64,000 nt of DNA from contig JAQTXZ010000001.1 of NCBI GenBank assembly GCA_028688515.1, positions 186,001-250,000 of the forward strand. Direction: 5' to 3'. Shown here piece after piece: positions 17,055 through 59,558 of the stretch. This stretch comes from Patescibacteria group bacterium. GTDB lineage: Bacteria; Patescibacteriota; Patescibacteriia; 2-12-FULL-60-25. A program made the position numbers and the translations under genes. Under the pieces are notes generated by a model. That model did not search any database. It was not told the DNA's origin and saw only the letters and a list, made by a program, of their open reading frames with translations. Position 1 is the stretch's first letter. Each line of letters opens with the position of its first letter.

Positions 17055-19064
17055 ATGTGCGGCATTGCCGGTTTTGTGGGAGTCGGAGCTAAAGATGAAT
17101 TGCATCGCATGACCGATGCTATCGCGCGTCGCGGTCCTGACGATGAGGGCTTTTTTGTTGCCGACGGCGTTGGTTTCGGTTTTCGCCGTTTGAGCATCAT
17201 CGACGTCGCCGGTGGACATCAGCCTCTTACGAACGAAGACGGGTCCGTTTGGGTGATGATGAACGGTGAAATTTACGGTTACAAAAGCTTGATGGAAGAG
17301 TTGAGGTCAAAAGGTCATCGATTCAAAACACAATCAGATACGGAAGTCATTGTCCACGCATACGAAGAGTGGGGAGAGGCGTGTTTGGAAAAATTGAACG
17401 GCATGTTTGCGATTGCGCTTTGGGATTCGCGCAGCAAACGACTTTTACTTGCGCGAGACAGGATGGGCAAGAAGCCGCTTTATTGGACGATCAAAAAACA
17501 AACATTGTGGTTCGCGTCGGAACTCAAGGCACTGCTTGCCGCTGGAGTTGTCGATCGCGAGATGGATCCTATTTCGCTTGGACTGTATTTTCGCACGGAT
17601 ATGGTTCCGACACCGCGTTCGATTTTTAAAAATGTTCAAAAACTCGAACCTGCCACGGCGATGATTTGGAAGGACGGACATGTCGAAAAGTCGTGGATGT
17701 TTTGGGAGCCTGCCCTCACCCCGGCCCTCTCCCATCGAATGGGCGAGGGTGATGCTAATAAGCTGGTTAGCGAACTCGGTAAAATGATTGACGTCTCTGT
17801 CGCGGAGCGACTGGTGTCGGACGTGCCGCTTGGTTTGTTTTTGTCGGGAGGTTTGGATTCTGCAGTAGTCGCAGAAAGTGCTGCGCGACAAGGCGGCAGG
17901 ATGAAAGCGTTCACGATCGGATTTGACGATCCGACGCATGACGAAAGTGCTGCGGCAAAAAAGGTCGCGCAAGCATTCGGCCTTGAGCATTACGTCGACG
18001 TCTTAAAGCCCGAAGCGGCTATTGCGATGATTGACGAAGCGGCGCAACTTTTAGACGAGCCGCTCGCTGATGCGTCAATTCTGCCGCAACTTTTACTTTC
18101 AAAATTTACTCGTCAGCAAGTTACGGTCGCTCTCTCCGGTGACGGAGGTGACGAACTTCTTCTGGGCTATGCTCACATACCCGCCCATCAACTGATAAAT
18201 ACCTTGTCATTCTTGCGCAGGCGAGAATCCAGAGTCCGGATGGATCCTTGGGTCTCCGTAGGACTGCGCCCAAGGATGACAAAGGAAGACGGGATTGTCT
18301 TAAAAAGATTGTTGAATCGCGTACCGGCAAGCGACGGGTACTTCAGTCTTGGATTCAAGACTCAGAGGTTCGCGCGCGGACTCGGCGCGCCGAGTCCGTG
18401 GGCGCGCGACGTGCGCTGGCGTGGCGCCTTTGACAGTTCGACATTGACGTCAATGTTGCTGCCGGAAGTAGCGCACGCTGCCGACGTCGATTATGCGGAA
18501 CGCCAGCTGGCGGAGAGAGCAAATGAAATTAAGAATTATGAATTAAGAATTAAGAATGAGGAGGACGCGGTACGATTGGGACGTGCGACGCGGGACGACG
18601 TTTTTTGGCGACAATGGTCATGGGCTTACCTGCGTACGTTTTTGATGGACGAGGTGATGGTCAAAGTCGATCGCGCCGGAATGTGGTTTGCGCTGGAGTC
18701 CAGAGCGCCGCTGCTCGACACAAGAGTCGTCGAGTTTTTGTTGAACGTTCCGTCGCAATACAAACTCGGCGCGTGGAAGAAAAAGAGATTGTTTAAAGAA
18801 TTATTGAAAGGCAAAGTTCCATCGGATATTCTTAATAAACCCAAACATGGTTTCGCCGTGCCGGTCGGCGCGTGGCTAAACGGCCCTTTGGCCGAGAGGT
18901 TTACTGCTTTGACGGAGCCCGGACGTTTGCATTCGCAGGGGCTTTTCGATCCGGTTGCAGTCAAACGCCTGGCGGACGAGCATCGCGCCGGCAGGATTGA
19001 CAGGCGCAAAGAAATGTGGGCCATGTTCATGTTTCAGTTATGGTATGATAAATGGGCTAAATGA
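17055..19064 (+). CDS. asnB: Asparagine synthase-like glutamine amidotransferase with three in-frame repeat insertions
   Basis: 669 residues. MCGIAGFVG gives the catalytic Cys2 of the class II glutaminase domain (~1-215); LSGGLDS at 263-269 is the ATP-pyrophosphatase loop of the synthetase domain, and KTQRFARG, VKVDRAGMW and ESRAPLLDTRVVEF follow in order. It makes Asn from Asp and Gln, or, as often in glycan clusters, amidates a sugar acid. The protein carries three segments encoded by dispersed DNA repeats: ~220-232 (ALTPALSHRMGEG), ~383-410 (SFLRRRESR to RPRMTKED) and ~491-515 (NYELRIKN to GRATRDD). All keep the frame and lie between recognisable domain blocks, so the enzyme may still work. 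Confidence 0.88.
   Translation: MCGIAGFVGVGAKDELHRMTDAIARRGPDDEGFFVADGVGFGFRRLSIIDVAGGHQPLTNEDGSVWVMMNGEIYGYKSLMEELRSKGHRFKTQSDTEVIVHAYEEWGEACLEKLNGMFAIALWDSRSKRLLLARDRMGKKPLYWTIKKQTLWFASELKALLAAGVVDREMDPISLGLYFRTDMVPTPRSIFKNVQKLEPATAMIWKDGHVEKSWMFWEPALTPALSHRMGEGDANKLVSELGKMIDVSVAERLVSDVPLGLFLSGGLDSAVVAESAARQGGRMKAFTIGFDDPTHDESAAAKKVAQAFGLEHYVDVLKPEAAIAMIDEAAQLLDEPLADASILPQLLLSKFTRQQVTVALSGDGGDELLLGYAHIPAHQLINTLSFLRRRESRVRMDPWVSVGLRPRMTKEDGIVLKRLLNRVPASDGYFSLGFKTQRFARGLGAPSPWARDVRWRGAFDSSTLTSMLLPEVAHAADVDYAERQLAERANEIKNYELRIKNEEDAVRLGRATRDDVFWRQWSWAYLRTFLMDEVMVKVDRAGMWFALESRAPLLDTRVVEFLLNVPSQYKLGAWKKKRLFKELLKGKVPSDILNKPKHGFAVPVGAWLNGPLAERFTALTEPGRLHSQGLFDPVAVKRLADEHRAGRIDRRKEMWAMFMFQLWYDKWAK
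17712..17749 (+). repeat. CCCTCACCCC...GAGGG repeat word inside asnB
   Basis: A 38-nt C/G-rich imperfect palindrome (CCCTCACCC at the left, GGGCGAGGG at the right) encoding ALTPALSHRMGEG in frame. It has no counterpart in the AsnB family and resembles small palindromic repeats known from other bacterial genomes. Confidence 0.7.
18204..18285 (+). repeat. dRS3-like repeat word inside asnB
   Basis: Starts TTGTCATTCTTGCGCAGGCG and ends CCCAAGGATGACAAAG. The same word occurs at 37935-38065 (tail of the DUF2304 gene), 41453-41490 and, inverted, at 51418-51447. The left half is shared almost base for base with the 51418 copy (about 26 nt), the right half with the 37980 copy. Read in frame here as about 27 residues. 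Confidence 0.8.
18527..18590 (+). repeat. AATTAAGAATT word followed by ACGATTGGGACGTGCGACG word inside asnB
   Basis: Two different words lie side by side: an AATTAAGAATTATG tandem (18527-18560) and the 19-mer ACGATTGGGACGTGCGACG (18572-18590). The 19-mer recurs exactly at 38096-38114 and 46714-46732, each time inside or at the start of a gene. Confidence 0.8.
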
Positions 19065-34623: not shown

Positions 34624-35637
34624 ATGTCGACAAAATCATTTACTGAAAGAAAGAATGTGCTCGTCACCGGCGGTGCGGGTTTTATCGGGTCTCATTTGTG
34701 CGACAGGCTGCTCCACGATTCCAATGTTATTTGCGTGGATAACTTTATTACCAGTTCTGTCGCCAACATCGACCATCTTTTGCGCGAGCCGCATTTTGAG
34801 TTTATCAATCACGACATTACGCAGCCGCTTGATCTTTCGAGTTACAAAGAGTTGGACAGATTCAGAGTGGAATATAACGGATTGCAAGAAATCTACCATT
34901 TGGCCTGCCCTATTTCAAAAAGACATTTCGACGACTTTAAAATCGCCACGGTTTTAACTAATTCTATCGGTGTCAAGCATGTTTTGGATCTGGCTGTCGC
35001 ACATCATTCCAAAGTTCTTTATGCCTCGTCCAGCGTGCTTTACGGAAACAGGCCGAACAGGGATGTGCCTGTTAAAGAAACGGACGAATGCCGTTTGAAC
35101 CATTTGACGACGCGCGGTGCCTACGACGAGGGCAAACGTTTTTCTGAAGCTATTTTGCAGACTTACGCGGATGTTTATGGGTTGGATGTTAAGATCGCGC
35201 GTTTGTTCAGAACGTATGGACCGCGCATGAAGATTTTTGACGGCAATTTGATTCCGGACATGGTTTTGAATGCGTTAGACGGCAAGGACATAACGATTTC
35301 CGGAGACGAAGAAACGCGAACATCACTTTGTAATGTAAAAGATATGGTGGACGGCATTCTGCGTTTGATGTCTTCGCCGATAGATATCACGTTGGTAAAT
35401 CTCGGTTCTGATGAAGAGGTTAGACTGGTGAGTGTGGCGCAAAAGATTTTGCAGGTAACCGGTTCCGCTTCGCGCGTAAGGTTCGAACCGCATATCCAAC
35501 AGTACATCGATCCCGGTCTGCCTGATATTTCGCGCGCCAAAGAGCTTTTGGGCTGGGTGCCGCTGGTCCGCCTTGATGACGGTCTCAAAGGGATGGTCGA
35601 GTATGCGAACTCCAATAGAAACCTAGTTTCGTTTTAA
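34624..35637 (+). CDS. UDP-glucuronate decarboxylase-like SDR (UXS-like), copy 1
   Basis: 337 residues. VLVTGGAGFIGSHLCDRLL is the NAD site; YASSSVLYG, GAYDEGKRFSEA (YxxxK region: Y-D-E-G-K) and ARLFRTYGPRM are hallmarks of UDP-xylose synthases, which oxidise and decarboxylate UDP-glucuronate to UDP-xylose. Some family members do other NDP-sugar chemistry, so the product is not certain. A clear paralogue follows at 35718, sharing these blocks in the same positions. Confidence 0.8.
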   Translation: MSTKSFTERKNVLVTGGAGFIGSHLCDRLLHDSNVICVDNFITSSVANIDHLLREPHFEFINHDITQPLDLSSYKELDRFRVEYNGLQEIYHLACPISKRHFDDFKIATVLTNSIGVKHVLDLAVAHHSKVLYASSSVLYGNRPNRDVPVKETDECRLNHLTTRGAYDEGKRFSEAILQTYADVYGLDVKIARLFRTYGPRMKIFDGNLIPDMVLNALDGKDITISGDEETRTSLCNVKDMVDGILRLMSSPIDITLVNLGSDEEVRLVSVAQKILQVTGSASRVRFEPHIQQYIDPGLPDISRAKELLGWVPLVRLDDGLKGMVEYANSNRNLVSF

Positions 35638-35711
35638 TTAAGAATTATGAATTAAGAATTGCGGTAGATTATTCTCAAACATTCATAATTCTTAATTCAT
35701 AATTCTTAATT
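35636..35711. repeat. Perfect 25-bp inverted repeat of AATTAAGAATT words
   Basis: Arms 35636-35660 and 35687-35711 are exact reverse complements, separated by 26 nt. Each arm is AATTAAGAATTATG plus a second AATTAAGAATT. The left arm begins one base inside or right after the upstream TAA stop. The same word occurs at 18527, 41425, 49562 and, degenerate, at 58958. Confidence 0.85.
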
Positions 35712-37619: not shown

Positions 37620-38060
37620 ATGTTAATACAAATTTTGTTGGTTTTGGGCTTTGTTTTAGCCTTGTGGGTAACTTTAAAACGGTTCAGACAGAGAGTTATC
37701 TCATTATCTGAATTTCTGGCTTGGTCAGTTTTGTGGCTGGGCGGAGCGATCGTGTCCATCTTACCGAAACTTACGGAATATCTCGCTGCAATTTTTGGAG
37801 TCGGCCGCGGCGTTGATTTGATTTTGTACGCAGCGGTCGCAATACAATTCTTTTTGATTTTTAAACTTTTCATCAATTTGGAAAAAACAGAAAGACAATT
37901 GACTAAGATTGTGGAACAAAATGCGCTTGCCGTTTTGTCATTCCCGAGGAGTTCGAGTGACGACGTCGGGAATCCAGAATCAGATGGATCCTCGGGTCTC
38001 CGTCGGACTACGCCCAAGGATGACAAAAATGGGGATGAATCCTCGCATTCGCAAGGATGA
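37620..38060 (+). CDS. DUF2304 family membrane protein with repeat-encoded tail
   Basis: 146 residues. Three membrane helices (ILLVLGFVLALWVTLKRF; EFLAWSVLWLGGAIVSIL; LILYAAVAIQFFLIFKLFI) followed by LEKTERQLTKIVEQNAL, the standard DUF2304 plan. From about residue 108 the sequence (SFPRSSSDDVGNPESDG onward) comes from a dRS3-like DNA repeat and has no family counterpart; it supplies ~38 residues and the stop. Probably works with the GT2 just upstream. Confidence 0.8.
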   Translation: MLIQILLVLGFVLALWVTLKRFRQRVISLSEFLAWSVLWLGGAIVSILPKLTEYLAAIFGVGRGVDLILYAAVAIQFFLIFKLFINLEKTERQLTKIVEQNALAVLSFPRSSSDDVGNPESDGSSGLRRTTPKDDKNGDESSHSQG

Positions 38061-38069: not shown

Positions 38070-39176
38070 ATGGAATCATCCTCTCTTGACGCGGGACGAT
38101 TGGGACGTGCGACGTGTGACGTCATTGTAGTTTCATACGATCATGCGCGGTTTTTTGATAACTTGTTCGATTCGCTATCAAAGGTCGATTATCCTCGCGA
38201 ATTGTGGCGTTTGCACATCGTCATTAATAAAGACGATGACGGAACTTTCGAGGCGGTTCAGCGTCTTCGCGCAAAATATTCATCCGAGCTTCCGGAGCTG
38301 ATTGTGCATGAGCCTCATGCTAACCTGGGATTTTCGGGCGGCAATAATCTGGCGATTATTTGGGCCATGCAACGCGGCGCTGAATTCGTCTATCTTTTAA
38401 ATCCTGATACTGCGGTCAATCCGAACTTTTTGACCGAAGCGATTAAGGTCGCACAAAGTGAAAAAGGCGTTGGTTCCGTTCAGTCGCTTTTATTGCGAGG
38501 AGATAATCCGCAACAAATTAATTCGCGCGGCAATGCTTTGCATTTTTTGGGATTTGGTTATTGTTTGGGCGATCACGAGTCGATAGAAAAAGCGTCAACA
38601 GAAGTCACCGACATCAGTTACTCATCCGGCGCTGGAGTTTTACTACCAGTCAAAGTTTTGGAAAAAGTCGGACTCTTGGATGAAACTTTATTTTCTTATC
38701 ACGAAGATTTGGATTTGGGTTGGCGTATAATGTTAGCTGGATACAGAAACGTCATTGCGCCAAAGAGTATCGTTAAACACTATTACGAATTTTCACGCTC
38801 AATATCCAAGTGGCATTGGATGGAACGTAACCGCATCGCGGTCGTGTTAAAGAATTATTCTTTTTGGACATTGTTGCTGATGGCGCCCGCGCTTGTCGCG
38901 ACAGACGTCGCGATTTGGACTTTTGCGGTAAAGGGCGGATGGCTTAAAGAAAAGTGGAGAGCGTCTATTTGGTTCTTGAAGCCAAGCACTTGGAGATATA
39001 TTCTGAACGGGCGCAACCAAATCAGGCGCACGCGGCGCGTACCGGATTGGTTGATTATCAGCCGCATGACTTGGAGGATTGAATATCAGGAATTGAAAAG
39101 CGGTTGGGCGGAAAAAATCGCCAATCCGTTTTGGAAAGCCTTTTATGTCAGTTACAGATTGATCGTAAGATGGTAA
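38070..39176 (+). CDS. Glycosyltransferase family 2 (rhamnosyl/WcaE-like), N-terminus altered by a repeat
   Basis: 368 residues. The GT2 core is clear: CDVIVVSYDHARFFDNLFDS, INKDDDGTFEAV, LGFSGGNNLAI, LNPDTAVNPNFL and SYHEDLDLGWRIMLAGY. The first ~15 residues (SSSLDAGRLGRATCD) are encoded by the ACGATTGGGACGTGCGACG repeat word, so the start was either replaced or extended. A C-terminal hydrophobic stretch (TLLLMAPALVATDVAIWTF) may be membrane-associated. It probably adds a deoxyhexose to a growing glycan. Confidence 0.85.
   Translation: MESSSLDAGRLGRATCDVIVVSYDHARFFDNLFDSLSKVDYPRELWRLHIVINKDDDGTFEAVQRLRAKYSSELPELIVHEPHANLGFSGGNNLAIIWAMQRGAEFVYLLNPDTAVNPNFLTEAIKVAQSEKGVGSVQSLLLRGDNPQQINSRGNALHFLGFGYCLGDHESIEKASTEVTDISYSSGAGVLLPVKVLEKVGLLDETLFSYHEDLDLGWRIMLAGYRNVIAPKSIVKHYYEFSRSISKWHWMERNRIAVVLKNYSFWTLLLMAPALVATDVAIWTFAVKGGWLKEKWRASIWFLKPSTWRYILNGRNQIRRTRRVPDWLIISRMTWRIEYQELKSGWAEKIANPFWKAFYVSYRLIVRW
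38096..38114 (+). repeat. ACGATTGGGACGTGCGACG word at the GT2 start
   Basis: Exact 19-mer shared with 18572-18590 and 46714-46732. Here it encodes part of residues 9-15 of the GT2. Confidence 0.85.
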
Positions 39177-39182
39177 TTTGTT

Positions 39183-40289
39183 ATGAAAGTCGTTCACGTT
39201 TCTTGCGTTGCGCCTCCGCAGGGCGGAGGGATCGGGGTTGTGGCAAACCAAGAAGTTTTGTATTTGCGCAAACTCGGCGTTGACGCGACTTTAGTCGCTC
39301 CGAAAACCTCGTCACTAGTTACTCGTTACCAGTTACCAGTTACCCGTCTTCCCGCATTTCGCATCGGCAATGTCGGACGCTTATTGGGACTGAAGAAAGT
39401 TCTTAAAGACGCGGACGTCGTGCATCTGCATTATCCGTTTTATTTTACAGCAGGATTGATTGCGCGCTGGCGCAGGCAAAATAAAATTAAGCATCTTGTC
39501 GTGACTTTGCATCACGACGCAACTGATAACGGTTGGCGGGGACTTGCAGCAAACATTCATCGCAAGTTTTTGCAAAAGCGCGTCTTGGAATCTGCGGACT
39601 TGTTGTTGGTTTCGACTTTGGATTATGCGCGTAATTCGTCGTATTCATCTCTTGTTGGCGACATCCGTCTGCGCGAGTTGCCTTTTGGCGTTGACGCGAC
39701 GGTTTTTTGTCCCGCTTATTTAGCGTCACCCGTCACCCGTTACTCGTTACCAGTTACTCATCTAGTAGGCACTGTTTCTGTCATGGATCGCGCTCATCCG
39801 TTTAAGGGCATCGACGTCTTTTTGCGTGCGGTTGCCAAGTTACCGGCCAACGTCCATGCGGTTATTGTCGGCGACGGCGATCGCCGTCAGTCATATGAAG
39901 AAATGGCAAAAGCGCTTGGTATTGCAGATCGTGTAAACTTTGCAGGACGATTGAGCGAAGACGATTTGATAAAAACTTTGCAGAACTTGGATGTTTTTGT
40001 TTTTCCGAGTACGAGCCGTGCTGAGGCGTTTGGTTTGGTTGCGCTCGAAGCAATGTCTTGCGGCGTGCCCGTTGTTGCAAGCGACCTGCCAGGCGTGAGA
40101 GAGGTCATCAACAACGCGGGAGTCACGGTTGGAGTCAATGATGAAGTAGTACTCGCAAAAGCCGTCGAGGATTTGTTAAACGATACTGATCGACGTCAAA
40201 CGTTCGCAAAAGCAGCACGTGAAAAAGCGCTTGGTCTGGATTGGAATAAACACACGCAGACTTTGTTTGATTACTATAAACAATTATGA
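39183..40289 (+). CDS. Glycosyltransferase family 4 with two in-frame repeat words
   Basis: 368 residues. KVVHVSCVAPPQGGGIGVVA is a GT-B N-terminus; VSVMDRAHPFKGIDVFLRA, VIVGDGDRRQSYEEM, FVFPSTSRAEAFGLVALEAM and GVPVVASDLPGVREVI are the donor-site motifs. Two segments, SSLVTRYQLPVTRLP (~43-57) and SPVTRYSLPVTHL (~181-193), are encoded by the same DNA 19-mer (39318-39336 and 39739-39757). They fall at loops between strands, so the fold could tolerate them. Overlaps the next GT4 gene by 4 nt. Confidence 0.88.
   Translation: MKVVHVSCVAPPQGGGIGVVANQEVLYLRKLGVDATLVAPKTSSLVTRYQLPVTRLPAFRIGNVGRLLGLKKVLKDADVVHLHYPFYFTAGLIARWRRQNKIKHLVVTLHHDATDNGWRGLAANIHRKFLQKRVLESADLLLVSTLDYARNSSYSSLVGDIRLRELPFGVDATVFCPAYLASPVTRYSLPVTHLVGTVSVMDRAHPFKGIDVFLRAVAKLPANVHAVIVGDGDRRQSYEEMAKALGIADRVNFAGRLSEDDLIKTLQNLDVFVFPSTSRAEAFGLVALEAMSCGVPVVASDLPGVREVINNAGVTVGVNDEVVLAKAVEDLLNDTDRRQTFAKAAREKALGLDWNKHTQTLFDYYKQL
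39318..39336 (+). repeat. GTTACTCGTTACCAGTTAC word, copy 1
   Basis: Exact 19-mer, repeated at 39739-39757 within the same gene; flanked by more ACCAGTTACC/GTCACCCGTTAC units. Confidence 0.85.
39739..39757 (+). repeat. GTTACTCGTTACCAGTTAC word, copy 2
   Basis: Exact copy of the 39318 word, about 420 nt downstream in the same reading frame, preceded by GTCACCCGTCACCC units. Confidence 0.85.
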
Positions 40290-41446
40290 GGATTGCAATT
40301 TTAACAAATGCTTTTCCGCCTTTGTCGCGCGGCGGTGCGGGCAGGATCGCGGGCATGCAGGCCGATTGGTTACTGCGCCACGGACATGAAGTGAAGGTTT
40401 TTGTCCCGGCGCCTTTTCCCGGAGAGGCAGGCATTGCACCGTTCGAAACTTTTGTAACACGCACCAGTGTTCCGTTTGCGAAACTCAATAAAGCCATTGC
40501 GCCGATGCGCCTGATGTTTCATCTGGAGGATCTGGCGCCAAACTTAAAAGTTGTCGATCAAATTCGCGCATGGGGACCAGAAGTATTGCTTACACATAAC
40601 CTGACGGGCTGCGGCTGGGGAACTCCAAAGATGTTGCAGGCAACGGGCGTAAGATGGATTCATGTACTTCATGATGTGCAAATGTTTGAACCGTCGGGAC
40701 AAATGATGTCGTACAGCGTACAGCGTACAGCGTACAACGTAGTACGGATGGTACGTGGTACGTGGTACGGTTTCTGGTCCGCGCGACGTTCAAAAGCTCT
40801 GGGAGCTCCTGATGTTGTAATCAGCCCTTCGCAGTGGCTGCTGGACGAACATCGTAAACATGGGTTGCTGATTAATGTCGCAGCTCGCGTTCTGCCGAAT
40901 CCTGTGGAGATACCGCGAGGGTTTTGTGAAAATGAAATGCGCGAAGATTCCAAAATTATTTATATTGGACGTCTGTCGGCAGATAAAGGCGTCGAAGTCT
41001 TGATCGACGCGTGGCGATCGCTCGACCCTCGTCCGGGAGTTTTGACTTTGGTTGGCGACGGCGAGTTGGCGTCCAAATTGAATAAACTAAACGACGCGAT
41101 GATTGTATTAAAAGGTCAATTAACTCATGAACAAGCGATGGAGGAACTTTACGCATCGCGTTTGCTTATTTTGCCGTCGCTCGTTATGGAGAATCAGCCG
41201 ACGGTTTTACTGGAAGCTGTCGCCGCAGGCATTAACGTCATCGCAGCTGATGTCGGCGGAGTGCGCGAGTTGCTACAAGGCTACGGCACAATTGTCCCGC
41301 CTGGCGACATCAAGTCTCTCGCGGACAGTATCCGTCAAACTCTCAATCAACAATCGCAGACACTAATTCGCGAAAAGATTCTCGCAAGGCATAATGTTGA
41401 TGAGGTGATGGGGGAACTTGTCGAGCAATTAACAATTAAGAATTAA
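40286..41446 (+). CDS. Glycosyltransferase family 4 with a heptamer-repeat insertion
   Basis: 386 residues. MRIAILTNAFPPLSRGGAGR start, LPNPVEIPRGF, IIYIGRLSADKGVEVLIDAW, LTLVGDGELASKL and VAAGINVIAADVGGVRELL are the GT4 motifs. Residues ~142-163 (SYSVQRTAYNVVRMVRGTWY) are encoded by tandem GTACAGC and GTACGTG units at 40711-40770. The C-terminal EQLTIKN and the stop lie in an AATTAAGAATT repeat. It is the last gene of the plus-strand glycan operon. Confidence 0.88.
   Translation: MRIAILTNAFPPLSRGGAGRIAGMQADWLLRHGHEVKVFVPAPFPGEAGIAPFETFVTRTSVPFAKLNKAIAPMRLMFHLEDLAPNLKVVDQIRAWGPEVLLTHNLTGCGWGTPKMLQATGVRWIHVLHDVQMFEPSGQMMSYSVQRTAYNVVRMVRGTWYGFWSARRSKALGAPDVVISPSQWLLDEHRKHGLLINVAARVLPNPVEIPRGFCENEMREDSKIIYIGRLSADKGVEVLIDAWRSLDPRPGVLTLVGDGELASKLNKLNDAMIVLKGQLTHEQAMEELYASRLLILPSLVMENQPTVLLEAVAAGINVIAADVGGVRELLQGYGTIVPPGDIKSLADSIRQTLNQQSQTLIREKILARHNVDEVMGELVEQLTIKN
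40711..40770 (+). repeat. GTACAGC / GGTACGT tandem words in a GT4 gene
   Basis: Four heptamer units (GTACAGC three times, then GTACAAC) at 40711-40738, followed by GGTACGTGGTACGTGG. The 15-mer GTACGTGGTACGGTT near its end is also present, inverted, in the ftsE-ftsX gap (53246-53279). Confidence 0.8.
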
Positions 41447-41490
41447 GAACGTTTGTCATCCTTGCGCAGGCGAGGATCAAGAAAATAAGT
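41425..41490 (+). repeat. AATTAAGAATT word then dRS3-like word after the GT4 gene
   Basis: CAATTAACAATTAAGAATTAAG supplies the GT4 stop; TTTGTCATCCTTGCGCAGGC with GAGGATCAAG follows. These are two families placed side by side, as in asnB. Confidence 0.75.
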
Positions 41491-45607: not shown

Positions 45608-45617
45608 CGCATTATAT

Positions 45618-45731
45618 CTGTAGAGACGCAAAATCTTGCGTCTAACTCAAAACAGAATCGCTCAAAAACCACTCCCTAGACAAGGGGGTAGGAGGGTTTT
45701 TGGTTAGACGCAAGATTTTGCGTCTCTACAG
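45618..45731. repeat. MITE-like element: perfect 29-bp inverted repeat
   Basis: Arms 45618-45646 and 45703-45731 are exact reverse complements (starting CTGTAGAGACGCAAAATC). Each arm contains its own GACGCAA / TTGCGTC hairpin. The 56-nt interior also folds (AAAAACC ... GGTTTTT-type pairs). A single left arm with 7 further identical bases is found at 51451-51486. Confidence 0.85.
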
Positions 45732-45741
45732 AAGTATTTGT

Positions 45742-45858: not shown

Positions 45859-46755
45859 TCAGGAGTCAACACCAATTATCTTGCCTTGAGCGGCGGGCTC
45901 CTCGTCGCAGCTCCACGTGTTGAGGTCCTGCGAGAGGACCTTCGGCACCTTGCCGTTGCCGCAAGCGCAAGGCGGCTTGCTGGTATCGGCCTTGTCGGCG
46001 ACTGCCGCAAGACAGGACACGGCGGAGCCGATGCACTGTTGCTGAACGGAAACGGCGCTTGTCGAGCCGTTCTTTTTGGTGACCATGGTGAAGTTGCGCG
46101 TCGCGGACGACCCGGACGTGCACTCGTAGTTGAGTTCTTTGACCTCGCTCGAGGTCGAGGTCGCAACCGGCGCGGGCTTGGGAGCGGGCGGCGAGGCGAC
46201 TGTCGAACTCGGCGTCGCTGCAGGCGGCGTCCAGTGTGTCGAGGGTACGGTCGGTGCGGACGGCAGAACCGGAGTGACCGTCGCCGTGGACGTTGATGTC
46301 CGCGCGCTGACACTCGCACTCGTCGCGGCGAATGTCGGCGGCTCAGGCGGCGGGATGAGTCCCGGGTACTTGCAACTCCCGTCGGCGTTCATCGTGCACG
46401 AGAAGCTGAGAACGGCCGGTCGGCAGTGAGTTGCAGGGTCGTCGCCGGGGATGACGGCGTTGTACCACTCGACCTTGCGGGCACCCTGCGTGCACGAGCA
46501 TGTGACGTTATACGGCTGGTTGTCACCATCAACGTCGTACTCGCGCTGCGGGGTCTGTCCCTCGCACACGGCAGGGAGCTGCCCAAGAGCCGGCACGTAG
46601 TCGTACTCTGCGGAGCCCTCCTGCTCGCTGCTGTAACGAACTCCTCCCTGCCGGTGGCACCCCGCGACGATGAGCGTCGCGAAGAGCGCAGTGAGCGTCA
46701 GCATCGACGTGGGACGATTGGGACGTGCGACGTAGGACAATACTTGATGTTTCAC
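45859..46755 (-). CDS. Cys-rich secreted lipoprotein with a repeat inserted in its N-terminus
   Basis: 298 residues from GTG 46755, which has GGAGG 7 nt upstream. Lipobox LIVAGC ends at Cys33. The N-region (SYVARPNRPTS) comes from the ACGATTGGGACGTGCGACG repeat; without it the signal would be MLTLTALFATLIVAGC, starting at ATG 46704. The mature part has two Cys-rich blocks (TCSCTQ, HCRPAV, FSCTM, then YECTSG, QQCIGSAVSCLAA, CACGNG, WSCDEE) joined by a ~70-residue Pro/Thr/Ser/Ala linker. GC-rich and unlike its neighbours. Function unknown; probably a disulfide-stabilised surface protein. Confidence 0.75.
   Translation of the reverse strand: MKHQVLSYVARPNRPTSMLTLTALFATLIVAGCHRQGGVRYSSEQEGSAEYDYVPALGQLPAVCEGQTPQREYDVDGDNQPYNVTCSCTQGARKVEWYNAVIPGDDPATHCRPAVLSFSCTMNADGSCKYPGLIPPPEPPTFAATSASVSARTSTSTATVTPVLPSAPTVPSTHWTPPAATPSSTVASPPAPKPAPVATSTSSEVKELNYECTSGSSATRNFTMVTKKNGSTSAVSVQQQCIGSAVSCLAAVADKADTSKPPCACGNGKVPKVLSQDLNTWSCDEEPAAQGKIIGVDS
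46714..46732 (+). repeat. ACGATTGGGACGTGCGACG word in the lipoprotein start
   Basis: Third exact copy of the 19-mer (others 18572 and 38096), read on the opposite strand as part of the lipoprotein N-region. Confidence 0.85.
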
Positions 46756-46926
46756 GGTGCGACCTCCTCTGGAAAGACGACAGGCTGTAGACGACAGACG
46801 ACAGGAGTTATCTGTGTCCGACGTTTCGTGTTACATGTTCCATCGCTTCATGTTACATGCAATCGATGTGTCAACGTAGCAGAGAACTCGCATTATGTCA
46901 ATATCTCTGCTAAAATTTCAAGACTT

Positions 46927-48345
46927 ATGTTGCATCAAATAAAAGAGCTGATTAAACGTCTGATTCCGGTGTCTTGGCTTGATTGGTATCATTCATTTTT
47001 GGCTAAAATAGCAGCTTTTTGGTACGGCAATCCATCTCAAAAGTTGATAGTAATCGGGGTTACCGGCACCAATGGAAAGACGACGACGGCTTATTTGACG
47101 GCAAAAGCTCTCGAAGCTGGGGGCGTCAAAACAGGTTGTACGACCACGGCCATATTTAAAATCGGCGACAAAGAGTGGCTAAATGCAACAAAAATGACCA
47201 TGTTGGGGCGTTTTGCATTGCAAAAGACGCTAAAACAAATGGTTGATGCCGGATGCAAATATGCGGTTGTGGAAACTTCTTCGCAAGGCGTTTTGCAGCA
47301 TCGTCACAAACAAATTGCTTATGACATCGGAGTGTTTACCAATCTGACGCCGGAGCATATCGAAGCACATGGAGGATTTGAAAATTATAAACAAGCCAAG
47401 ATCGAGCTCTTCAAGCATATCGCGAGTTTGCCGACAAAAGTCATCAATGGAAAAACCGTTCCACGAGCGTTTGTTTTGAATAAAGATGATGAACACGCCA
47501 AAGATTTTGCCATCAAAGGTCAGCAAGTAACTTGGTATGGCTTGGGAGATGGATGCAATGTGCAAGCGTCTGATGTTAAAGAGACATTTGGCGGTATTAG
47601 TTTCGTCATCTTGAGCGTAGTCGAAAGATCCGGATTGGTCGGTCCAGATCCTTCAACTCCGTCGGACTTCGTTCAGGATGACAGAAAGAGGGACTTCGTT
47701 CAGGATGATAAAGTTGTTGTGAGTCTAAAGTTGCTCGGCTACGTAAACGTCTACAACGCTTTGGCAGCATTGTCCGTCGCAAAAGTGTTGGACGTCAATA
47801 TGTCTGAAGCCATTTCAAAACTTGAAGCGATAAAGAACATGCCTGGTCGTTTTGAGCGGATCGACGAAGGTCAGCCTTGGCAAGTAATGGTCGATTATGC
47901 GCCTGAGCCGGGTTCGCTCGCCAGACTTTATAAAGATGTCCGCATCTTAAAACCGCAAAGAATAATTCACGTCTTGGGATCTTGCGGAGGAGGTCGAGAT
48001 GTTGCGCGCCGTCCCATCCTGGGCAAAATGGCAGCGCAAAATGCCGCGATTGTCATCGTTACTAACGAAGATCCGTACGATGACGATCCGATGGAAATCA
48101 TCAAACAGGTTGCTGAAGGGGCAAAAGAGGGCGGAAAAATTGAAGGTGAGAATCTGTTTTTGATACTGGATCGCGCTTCTGCCATTCAAAAAGCCATGGA
48201 TTTGGCGCAGCCCGGAGATTTGGTTTTGATGACAGGAAAAGGGTCGGAGCAGCGTATATGTGTTGCAAATGGCAAAAAGATACCGTGGGACGAACGCAAG
48301 GCGGCGAGCAGAGCTATTCTTTCCACCATTGCGCAACGCGGATAA
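46927..48345 (+). CDS. murE: UDP-N-acetylmuramyl-tripeptide synthetase with a repeat-encoded insertion
   Basis: About 472 residues from ATG 46927 (MLHQIKELIKRLIPVSWLDW); upstream in-frame sequence is antisense to the lipoprotein. GTNGKTTT (~47-54) is the P-loop, FTNLTPEHIEAHG and GYVNVYNALAAL are Mur-ligase blocks, and LGSCGGGRDVARRP opens the C-terminal domain. The usual DNPR amino-acid motif is replaced by NEDPYDDDP, so the residue added cannot be stated. Residues ~227-262 (SVVERSGLVGPDP..., FVQDDRKRDFVQDDK) are encoded by a dispersed repeat that lies between two strands of the central domain. A -10-like TAAAAT lies 10 nt before ATG. Confidence 0.9.
   Translation: MLHQIKELIKRLIPVSWLDWYHSFLAKIAAFWYGNPSQKLIVIGVTGTNGKTTTAYLTAKALEAGGVKTGCTTTAIFKIGDKEWLNATKMTMLGRFALQKTLKQMVDAGCKYAVVETSSQGVLQHRHKQIAYDIGVFTNLTPEHIEAHGGFENYKQAKIELFKHIASLPTKVINGKTVPRAFVLNKDDEHAKDFAIKGQQVTWYGLGDGCNVQASDVKETFGGISFVILSVVERSGLVGPDPSTPSDFVQDDRKRDFVQDDKVVVSLKLLGYVNVYNALAALSVAKVLDVNMSEAISKLEAIKNMPGRFERIDEGQPWQVMVDYAPEPGSLARLYKDVRILKPQRIIHVLGSCGGGRDVARRPILGKMAAQNAAIVIVTNEDPYDDDPMEIIKQVAEGAKEGGKIEGENLFLILDRASAIQKAMDLAQPGDLVLMTGKGSEQRICVANGKKIPWDERKAASRAILSTIAQRG
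47604..47712 (+). repeat. GTCATCTTGAGCGTAGTCGAAAG-type word inside murE
   Basis: Begins CGTCATCTTGAGCGTAGTCG and contains the 18-mer GGACTTCGTTCAGGATGA twice (47664-47681 and 47691-47708). It is in frame with murE and adds about 36 residues. Confidence 0.85.
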
Positions 48346-51417: not shown

Positions 51418-51486
51418 ATGGATTCTCGCCTGCGCAAGAATGACAAAAAACTGTAGAGACGCAAAATCTTGCGTCTAACTCAAAAC
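51418..51486. repeat. dRS3-like word plus solo left arm of the 29-bp IR element
   Basis: 51418-51447 is the inverted copy of the asnB 18204 word (GCGCAAGAATGACAAAA end). 51451-51486 is identical over 36 nt to 45618-45653, i.e. one arm of the MITE-like element plus 7 bases. Tandem ACCAACAAACC units follow to 51510. Confidence 0.85.
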
Positions 51487-59432: not shown

Positions 59433-59558
59433 ATGATGTTAGACGACGGAGCAACAATGACTCCAGCAACGGATACGACGGAACCGACAGCGGAACCGAC
59501 AGCGGAACCGGAAATGGAACCGACAGCGGAACCGACGACAGAGGAACCGGCCGCATAG
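59433..59558 (+). CDS. Small acidic TAEP-repeat protein
   Basis: 41 residues from ATG 59433: an opening MMLDDGATMTPATDTTE then repeated TAEP units with Glu/Thr/Pro and ending EEPAA. Strongly acidic, no Lys or Arg. Its own promoter (59373) and bidirectional terminator (59577) make a complete short transcript, which supports expression; no Shine-Dalgarno is visible. It could also be a non-coding RNA. Function unknown. Confidence 0.5.
   Translation: MMLDDGATMTPATDTTEPTAEPTAEPEMEPTAEPTTEEPAA

Follow-up and report, generated by a model that had tools for sequence, protein, structure and literature searches.

How does a gene for a conserved enzyme remain open when its reading frame contains several kinds of dispersed repeat DNA? 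This question is raised by an asnB-type gene (17055-19064, + strand) in a 64,000-nucleotide stretch of DNA, hereafter the window, which belongs to a 1.29-Mb patescibacterial genome (4 contigs, 99% complete). The gene is open throughout and encodes a 669-aa protein with glutamine amidotransferase and asparagine synthase domains, which scores 439 bits against TIGR01536 (cut-off 267), also matches PF00733, and carries the N-terminal Cys2 and the SGGLDS motif of AsnB. Its catalytic motifs are intact and conserved across homologues, and glycosyltransferase genes adjoin it. The relatives searched constitute a family of 41 genomes of 0.7-1.6 Mb each, outside of which the nearest named AsnB proteins are those of Candidatus Taylorbacteria and a Patescibacteria bacterium (40-44% identity). 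The answer that we consider very probable is that dispersed repeats arrive repeatedly, that selection leaves in-frame, stop-free copies in tolerant loops, and that the resulting segments are translated.

The repeat DNA in asnB comprises at least four words in three loops: word A, word B, and the adjoining words C and D. A preliminary description of the locus had counted three words; it was right that they are in frame and leave the gene open, but its count was too low, and a 19-mer that it had set beside a tandem repeat proved to be part of a second 7-nt tandem word (word D). Word A (17713-17752, +), recognized from matches in the window and genome, is palindromic over its 40 nt and reads as ALTPALSHRMGEGD within the interdomain linker. 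Position 17713 has an exact match to CCCTCACCCCGGCCCTCTCCCA, of which the window should contain 0.01 by chance, and the genome contains two copies of the word. Unannotated repeats that match the 40 nt at 86-90% also occur in plasmid records of Enterobacter and E. coli, and 29 viral-contig stretches contain exact copies of the first 22 nt. Because word A amounts to a net gain of only 5 residues relative to the closest congeners, and because the linker that carries it (63 long) lies inside the homologue range (56-66), these lengths suggest that it may have replaced native linker sequence instead of being a pure addition.

Words B, C and D are all multi-copy in this genome. Word B (18204-18283, +), identified by its recurring copies, is a REPIN-like double hairpin of ~80 nt with TTGTCAT/ATGACAA ends, read as LSFLRRRESRVRMDPWVSVGLRPRMTK. 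Its first 28 nt (18204-18231) recur exactly at 51419-51446 (-), a first-hairpin copy outside ORFs of at least 80 aa, and a copy with 3 mismatches lies at 41453, against an expectation of 0.00; the second half of the word (18250-18283) is found again at 37994. At no more than 3 mismatches, 18 copies are present in the genome and none in the backwards control; plasmid records yielded no match to word B. Its ATTC...GAAT hairpin shape probably resembles that of the dRS3 element of Neisseria, as the preliminary description had remarked; some copies in relatives have the form ATTCCC-N8-GGGAAT, whereas the copy in asnB would differ from dRS3 in being ATTCTT-N8-GAGAAT. A word B copy outside asnB (contig C4, 315798-315986) lies in a 137-aa open frame whose peptide is 49% identical to AsnB residues 364-424, and an automatic search can misread it as an AsnB fragment. 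Word C (18525-18563, +) is an AATTAAG-type 7-nt tandem array read as EIKNYELRIKNEE, and word D (18564-18602, +) a GCGGGAC-type 7-nt tandem array read as DAVRLGRATRDDV; both were recognized from their tandem structure and from matches in the window, where AATTAAGAATTA-type matches number 17 (0.6 expected) and GGGACGTGCGACG-type matches 7 (1.2 expected). The genome contains 124 word C matches per strand, with overlapping units counted apart, and 28 word D matches at ~13 sites.

Uninterrupted alleles, for which the preliminary description had recommended a search in related genomes, were found in the same genus: at 66-79% protein identity, these asnB genes are devoid of words B, C and D and of the word A palindrome, and two of them (genomes G031 and G034) encode TLSPSRAEGS, conceivably a decayed word A, at the position of ALTPALSHRMGEGD. 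The segments are common to 0 of 45 homologues from other phyla, so that the finding which would have refuted the preliminary description, unrelated homologues sharing them as native sequence, was not made. The empty congener alleles together with this result support the earlier proposal that words entered the frame repeatedly and were retained through selection on the product, and the direction of change was probably gain. No target-site duplication is readable at the divergence between the alleles compared, and dS is saturated between the asnB of the window and the congener alleles, including the nearest one. For the only measurable pair, G031 and G034, a dN/dS of 0.05 points to purifying selection on the asnB gene family between these two genomes and says nothing on selection after insertion in the window genome. 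The enzyme that bears the segments presumably stays functional.

An AlphaFold2 model of AsnB, built on 46 sequences, has a mean pLDDT of 90.2 and a pTM of 0.91; its best matches among solved structures are 7ylz and 1ct9, and its fold agrees with AsnB structures. Model confidence clearly drops only at the repeat segments, and the ten-residue blocks of lowest pLDDT, 221-230 (61), 391-410 (57, 53) and 491-510 (69, 52), all fall within them. In the model, a strand and a helix flank the first segment, and a pair of helices flanks each of the other two. With a loop defined by predicted secondary structure plus low model confidence, the segments are thus predicted to lie in loops, as the preliminary description had anticipated.

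Alignment of the congeners indicates that the same loops are used by other words in other species. At loop 2 of AsnB, the window genome has word B, G036 a CCCC/GGGG palindrome and G028 word D; at loop 3, the window genome has words C and D and G028 has GTACGAT heptamers. The occupant of a single TrmD loop is word B in the window genome, G034 has a CCCTTT palindrome there, G028 has word D and G006 has GTACCGC heptamers; in G031 the loop is empty. Repeats that vary by species occupy five loops of PheT, the first of which carries word D in the window genome and G028, GAAGCTC heptamers in G034 and a CCCCCTTT palindrome in G035, and is empty in G031 and G033. The set of words in these loops differs in nearly every congener, and the loop-insertion question is better studied in PheT than in asnB. 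The copy numbers of the words differ strongly among congeners, and their arrivals are therefore mostly lineage-specific. Such loops are natural replicates at one enzyme site (empty, palindrome, double hairpin, heptamer), which let one ask how proteins gain loops, what insertion contributes relative to selection, and how 7-nt arrays spread.

The same words were likewise found in frame in genes whose identity was established by Pfam, namely those for TrmD, an IscS-type desulfurase, KsgA (twice), LeuS, Pgi, Tmk and GrpE. Genes named from reading of the sequence, for which no family model was used, include PheT and IleS, which also hold words in frame, and DnaE and Pnp, where words occur near the ends. 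When a non-coding copy from another part of the genome is translated, it matches the peptide inserted in TrmD at 96% identity. We reject assembly error as an explanation, since the frame is kept in many genes and independent genomes show similar insertions.

The window itself contains further carriers. A glycosyltransferase gene (39183-40289) has two GTTACCA-type 7-nt arrays, at 39306-39359 (+), in frame and read as TSSLVTRYQLPVTRLPAF, and at 39720-39770 (+), read as LASPVTRYSLPVTHLVG. The following glycosyltransferase gene (40286-41446) contains in-frame GTACAGC/GTACGTG 7-nt arrays at 40709-40774 (+), read as SYSVQRTAYNVVRMVRGTWYGF, and adjacent copies of words C and B at and just past its end (41427-41482, +). 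Word D is found at the 5' end of a third glycosyltransferase ORF (38070-39176) at 38088-38126 (+), where the true start codon is uncertain. A putative repeat-type segment of the VILSVVERS type, SFVILSVVERSGLVGPDPSTPSDFVQDDRKRDFVQDDKVVVS (47599-47724, +), lies in frame in the middle domain of a Mur ligase (gene inside ORF 46426-48345), the match to which covers 241 residues for a 200-position profile; this segment differs from all four asnB words. Segments such as those in asnB, where they occur in predicted proteins of these bacteria, should be read as translated repeats, not as conserved domains. An inverted pair of word C is intergenic (35636-35711), and an inverted pair of GTAGAGACGCAAAATCTTGCGTCT with additional copies (45617-45732 and 51451-51486) is one more palindromic word located outside ORFs of at least 80 aa. 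At 59480-59536 there are about four units of a 12-nt tandem repeat of the GGAACCGACAGC type, whose period, unlike that of the 7-nt words, is a multiple of three.

The range of hosts bears on whether the inserted peptides are useful, that is, retained for added binding surface, flexibility or regulation. Many segments are charged and hydrophilic, and the hosts are core metabolic and translation proteins, as such a role might lead one to expect; however, the segments are unconserved between congeners, each site holds different words, model confidence is low where they lie, and the host proteins are many and unrelated. We therefore regard a useful role as improbable, while still giving it slightly more weight than the remaining alternatives.

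Word B is mostly outside genes, and word C lies outside ORFs of at least 200 aa at ~13 of the 17 sites examined. No forward phase of a pure word C array is free of stops, and the genic copies are read in a single phase, LRIKNYELRIKN. For word D, every site with its locus examined lies within an ORF of 210 aa or more, although some of the ORF starts may be overextended. We checked for gene breakage at the non-coding sites of words A, B and C that have Pfam-matched neighbours on both sides, leaving out the pairs at loci L156 and L158. The flanks of these sites are unrelated genes and not two halves of one gene: PAP2/YceG, aminopeptidase/glutaredoxin, IF-2/thioredoxin, ClpP/DHH, EngA-type GTPase/peptidyl-tRNA hydrolase, LRR/ABC-2, glycosyltransferase/nucleotidyltransferase and GT2/MurJ. 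The earlier argument that frame-keeping implies selection is strengthened by these copies between unrelated genes; it is nevertheless circular in part, since a gene that had lost its frame would escape notice.

Repeated use of the same sites in PheT, TrmD and AsnB might instead reflect targeting, with the words preferring DNA or chromatin features that coincide with loops. Against this, palindromes, double hairpins and heptamers share sites although they are unrelated, and words B and C have many copies outside genes, so that we judge targeting to be a shade less probable still than a useful role of the peptides. Where the preliminary description left a choice between repeated insertion under selection and a preference for insertion into loops, the first stands and the second is unnecessary, because selection after insertion equally explains why unrelated words share loops.

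The 7-nt words place particular demands on the frame: since 7 is not a multiple of three, only certain total array lengths preserve it. A scan for tandem periods of 4-14 in the PheT and AsnB genes detected only period 7 and its double, 14. All codons in 7-nt arrays are located in indel loops (116/116 in PheT and 25/25 in AsnB, 141/141 together), which make up 25% and 14% of codons, respectively, in a test that is partly circular as the insertions themselves help to define the loops. It is conceivable, if rather doubtful, that the 7-nt arrays are dispersing elements with a shared 7-nt copying mechanism, which spread into genes across this small-genome family and rewrite the loops of essential enzymes with lineage-specific peptides. 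Removal of the segments after transcription or translation (as a mini-intron, an intein or by translational bypass), leaving an uninterrupted protein, would account for tolerance in essential genes but is scarcely credible, as the asnB-type gene contains no Rfam family and thus no known intron RNA, all segments keep the frame and are free of stops, which excision would not require, and heptamer or hairpin words of 20-80 nt are unlike known splicing elements.

Repeated arrival followed by selection for tolerable copies is hence the reading that we prefer. The words would spread to many sites via insertion, duplication or template switching, and copies that break genes would be lost. Those that are stop-free, have a net length that is a multiple of three and fall in a loop tolerating extra residues would persist as nearly neutral new peptide.

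Among known systems, Rickettsia provides the best-known examples of repeats inserted in frame, and cases in other organisms are scattered. Rickettsia palindromic elements are dispersed repeats located in frame inside unrelated genes, with protein function presumed to be kept (PMC10969869; PMC3733652). The words described here resemble them in effect, being in frame in conserved genes, absent from close alleles and present in a small-genome lineage, which in Rickettsia is host-associated. The Rickettsia elements are palindromic and ~100-150 bp long, whereas word B measures ~80 nt, word A 40 nt, and words C and D are 7-nt arrays; unlike them, several unrelated word types, including heptamers, coexist here, and one loop holds different words in different species. 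ERIC-type intragenic repeats of enterobacteria are 103-168 bp long and have open frames fused in frame to their hosts; they differ in sequence, and reuse of one loop by different families does not appear to be described for them (PMC2759123).

A linker or loop placement has already been proposed for intragenic REPs (PMC3733652). Word B is like REP/REPIN sequences in consisting of two inverted hairpins with complementary ends and in its predominance outside genes. The vicinity of word B yielded no RAYT transposase, and the genome has only one partial Y1_Tnp match (contig C4, 29944-30195), in a GC-rich stretch adjoining a gene that resembles restriction-modification subunits. The 3.2-kb locus of this sole match contains no word B, and a Y1 transposase was rejected as its carrier. 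For the 7-nt words, the closest likeness in period is to the TAACTGA heptanucleotide direct repeats of Beggiatoaceae, Cyanobacteria and Bacteroidetes, which are patchy across species, mainly intergenic and just upstream of start codons, with stops in the repeat limiting entry into coding sequence (PMC4679880). Both have a tandem period of exactly 7 nt, but the arrays described here are inside core genes.

A literature search on in-frame repeat words in Patescibacteria or CPR, of incomplete coverage, returned nothing relevant. What sets this case apart from the known systems is the presence of several unrelated word types at once, of heptamers in core genes, and of loop reuse between species. 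In-frame repeat insertion is common in the core genes of another small-genome lineage, in which repeat DNA probably becomes new protein segments repeatedly.
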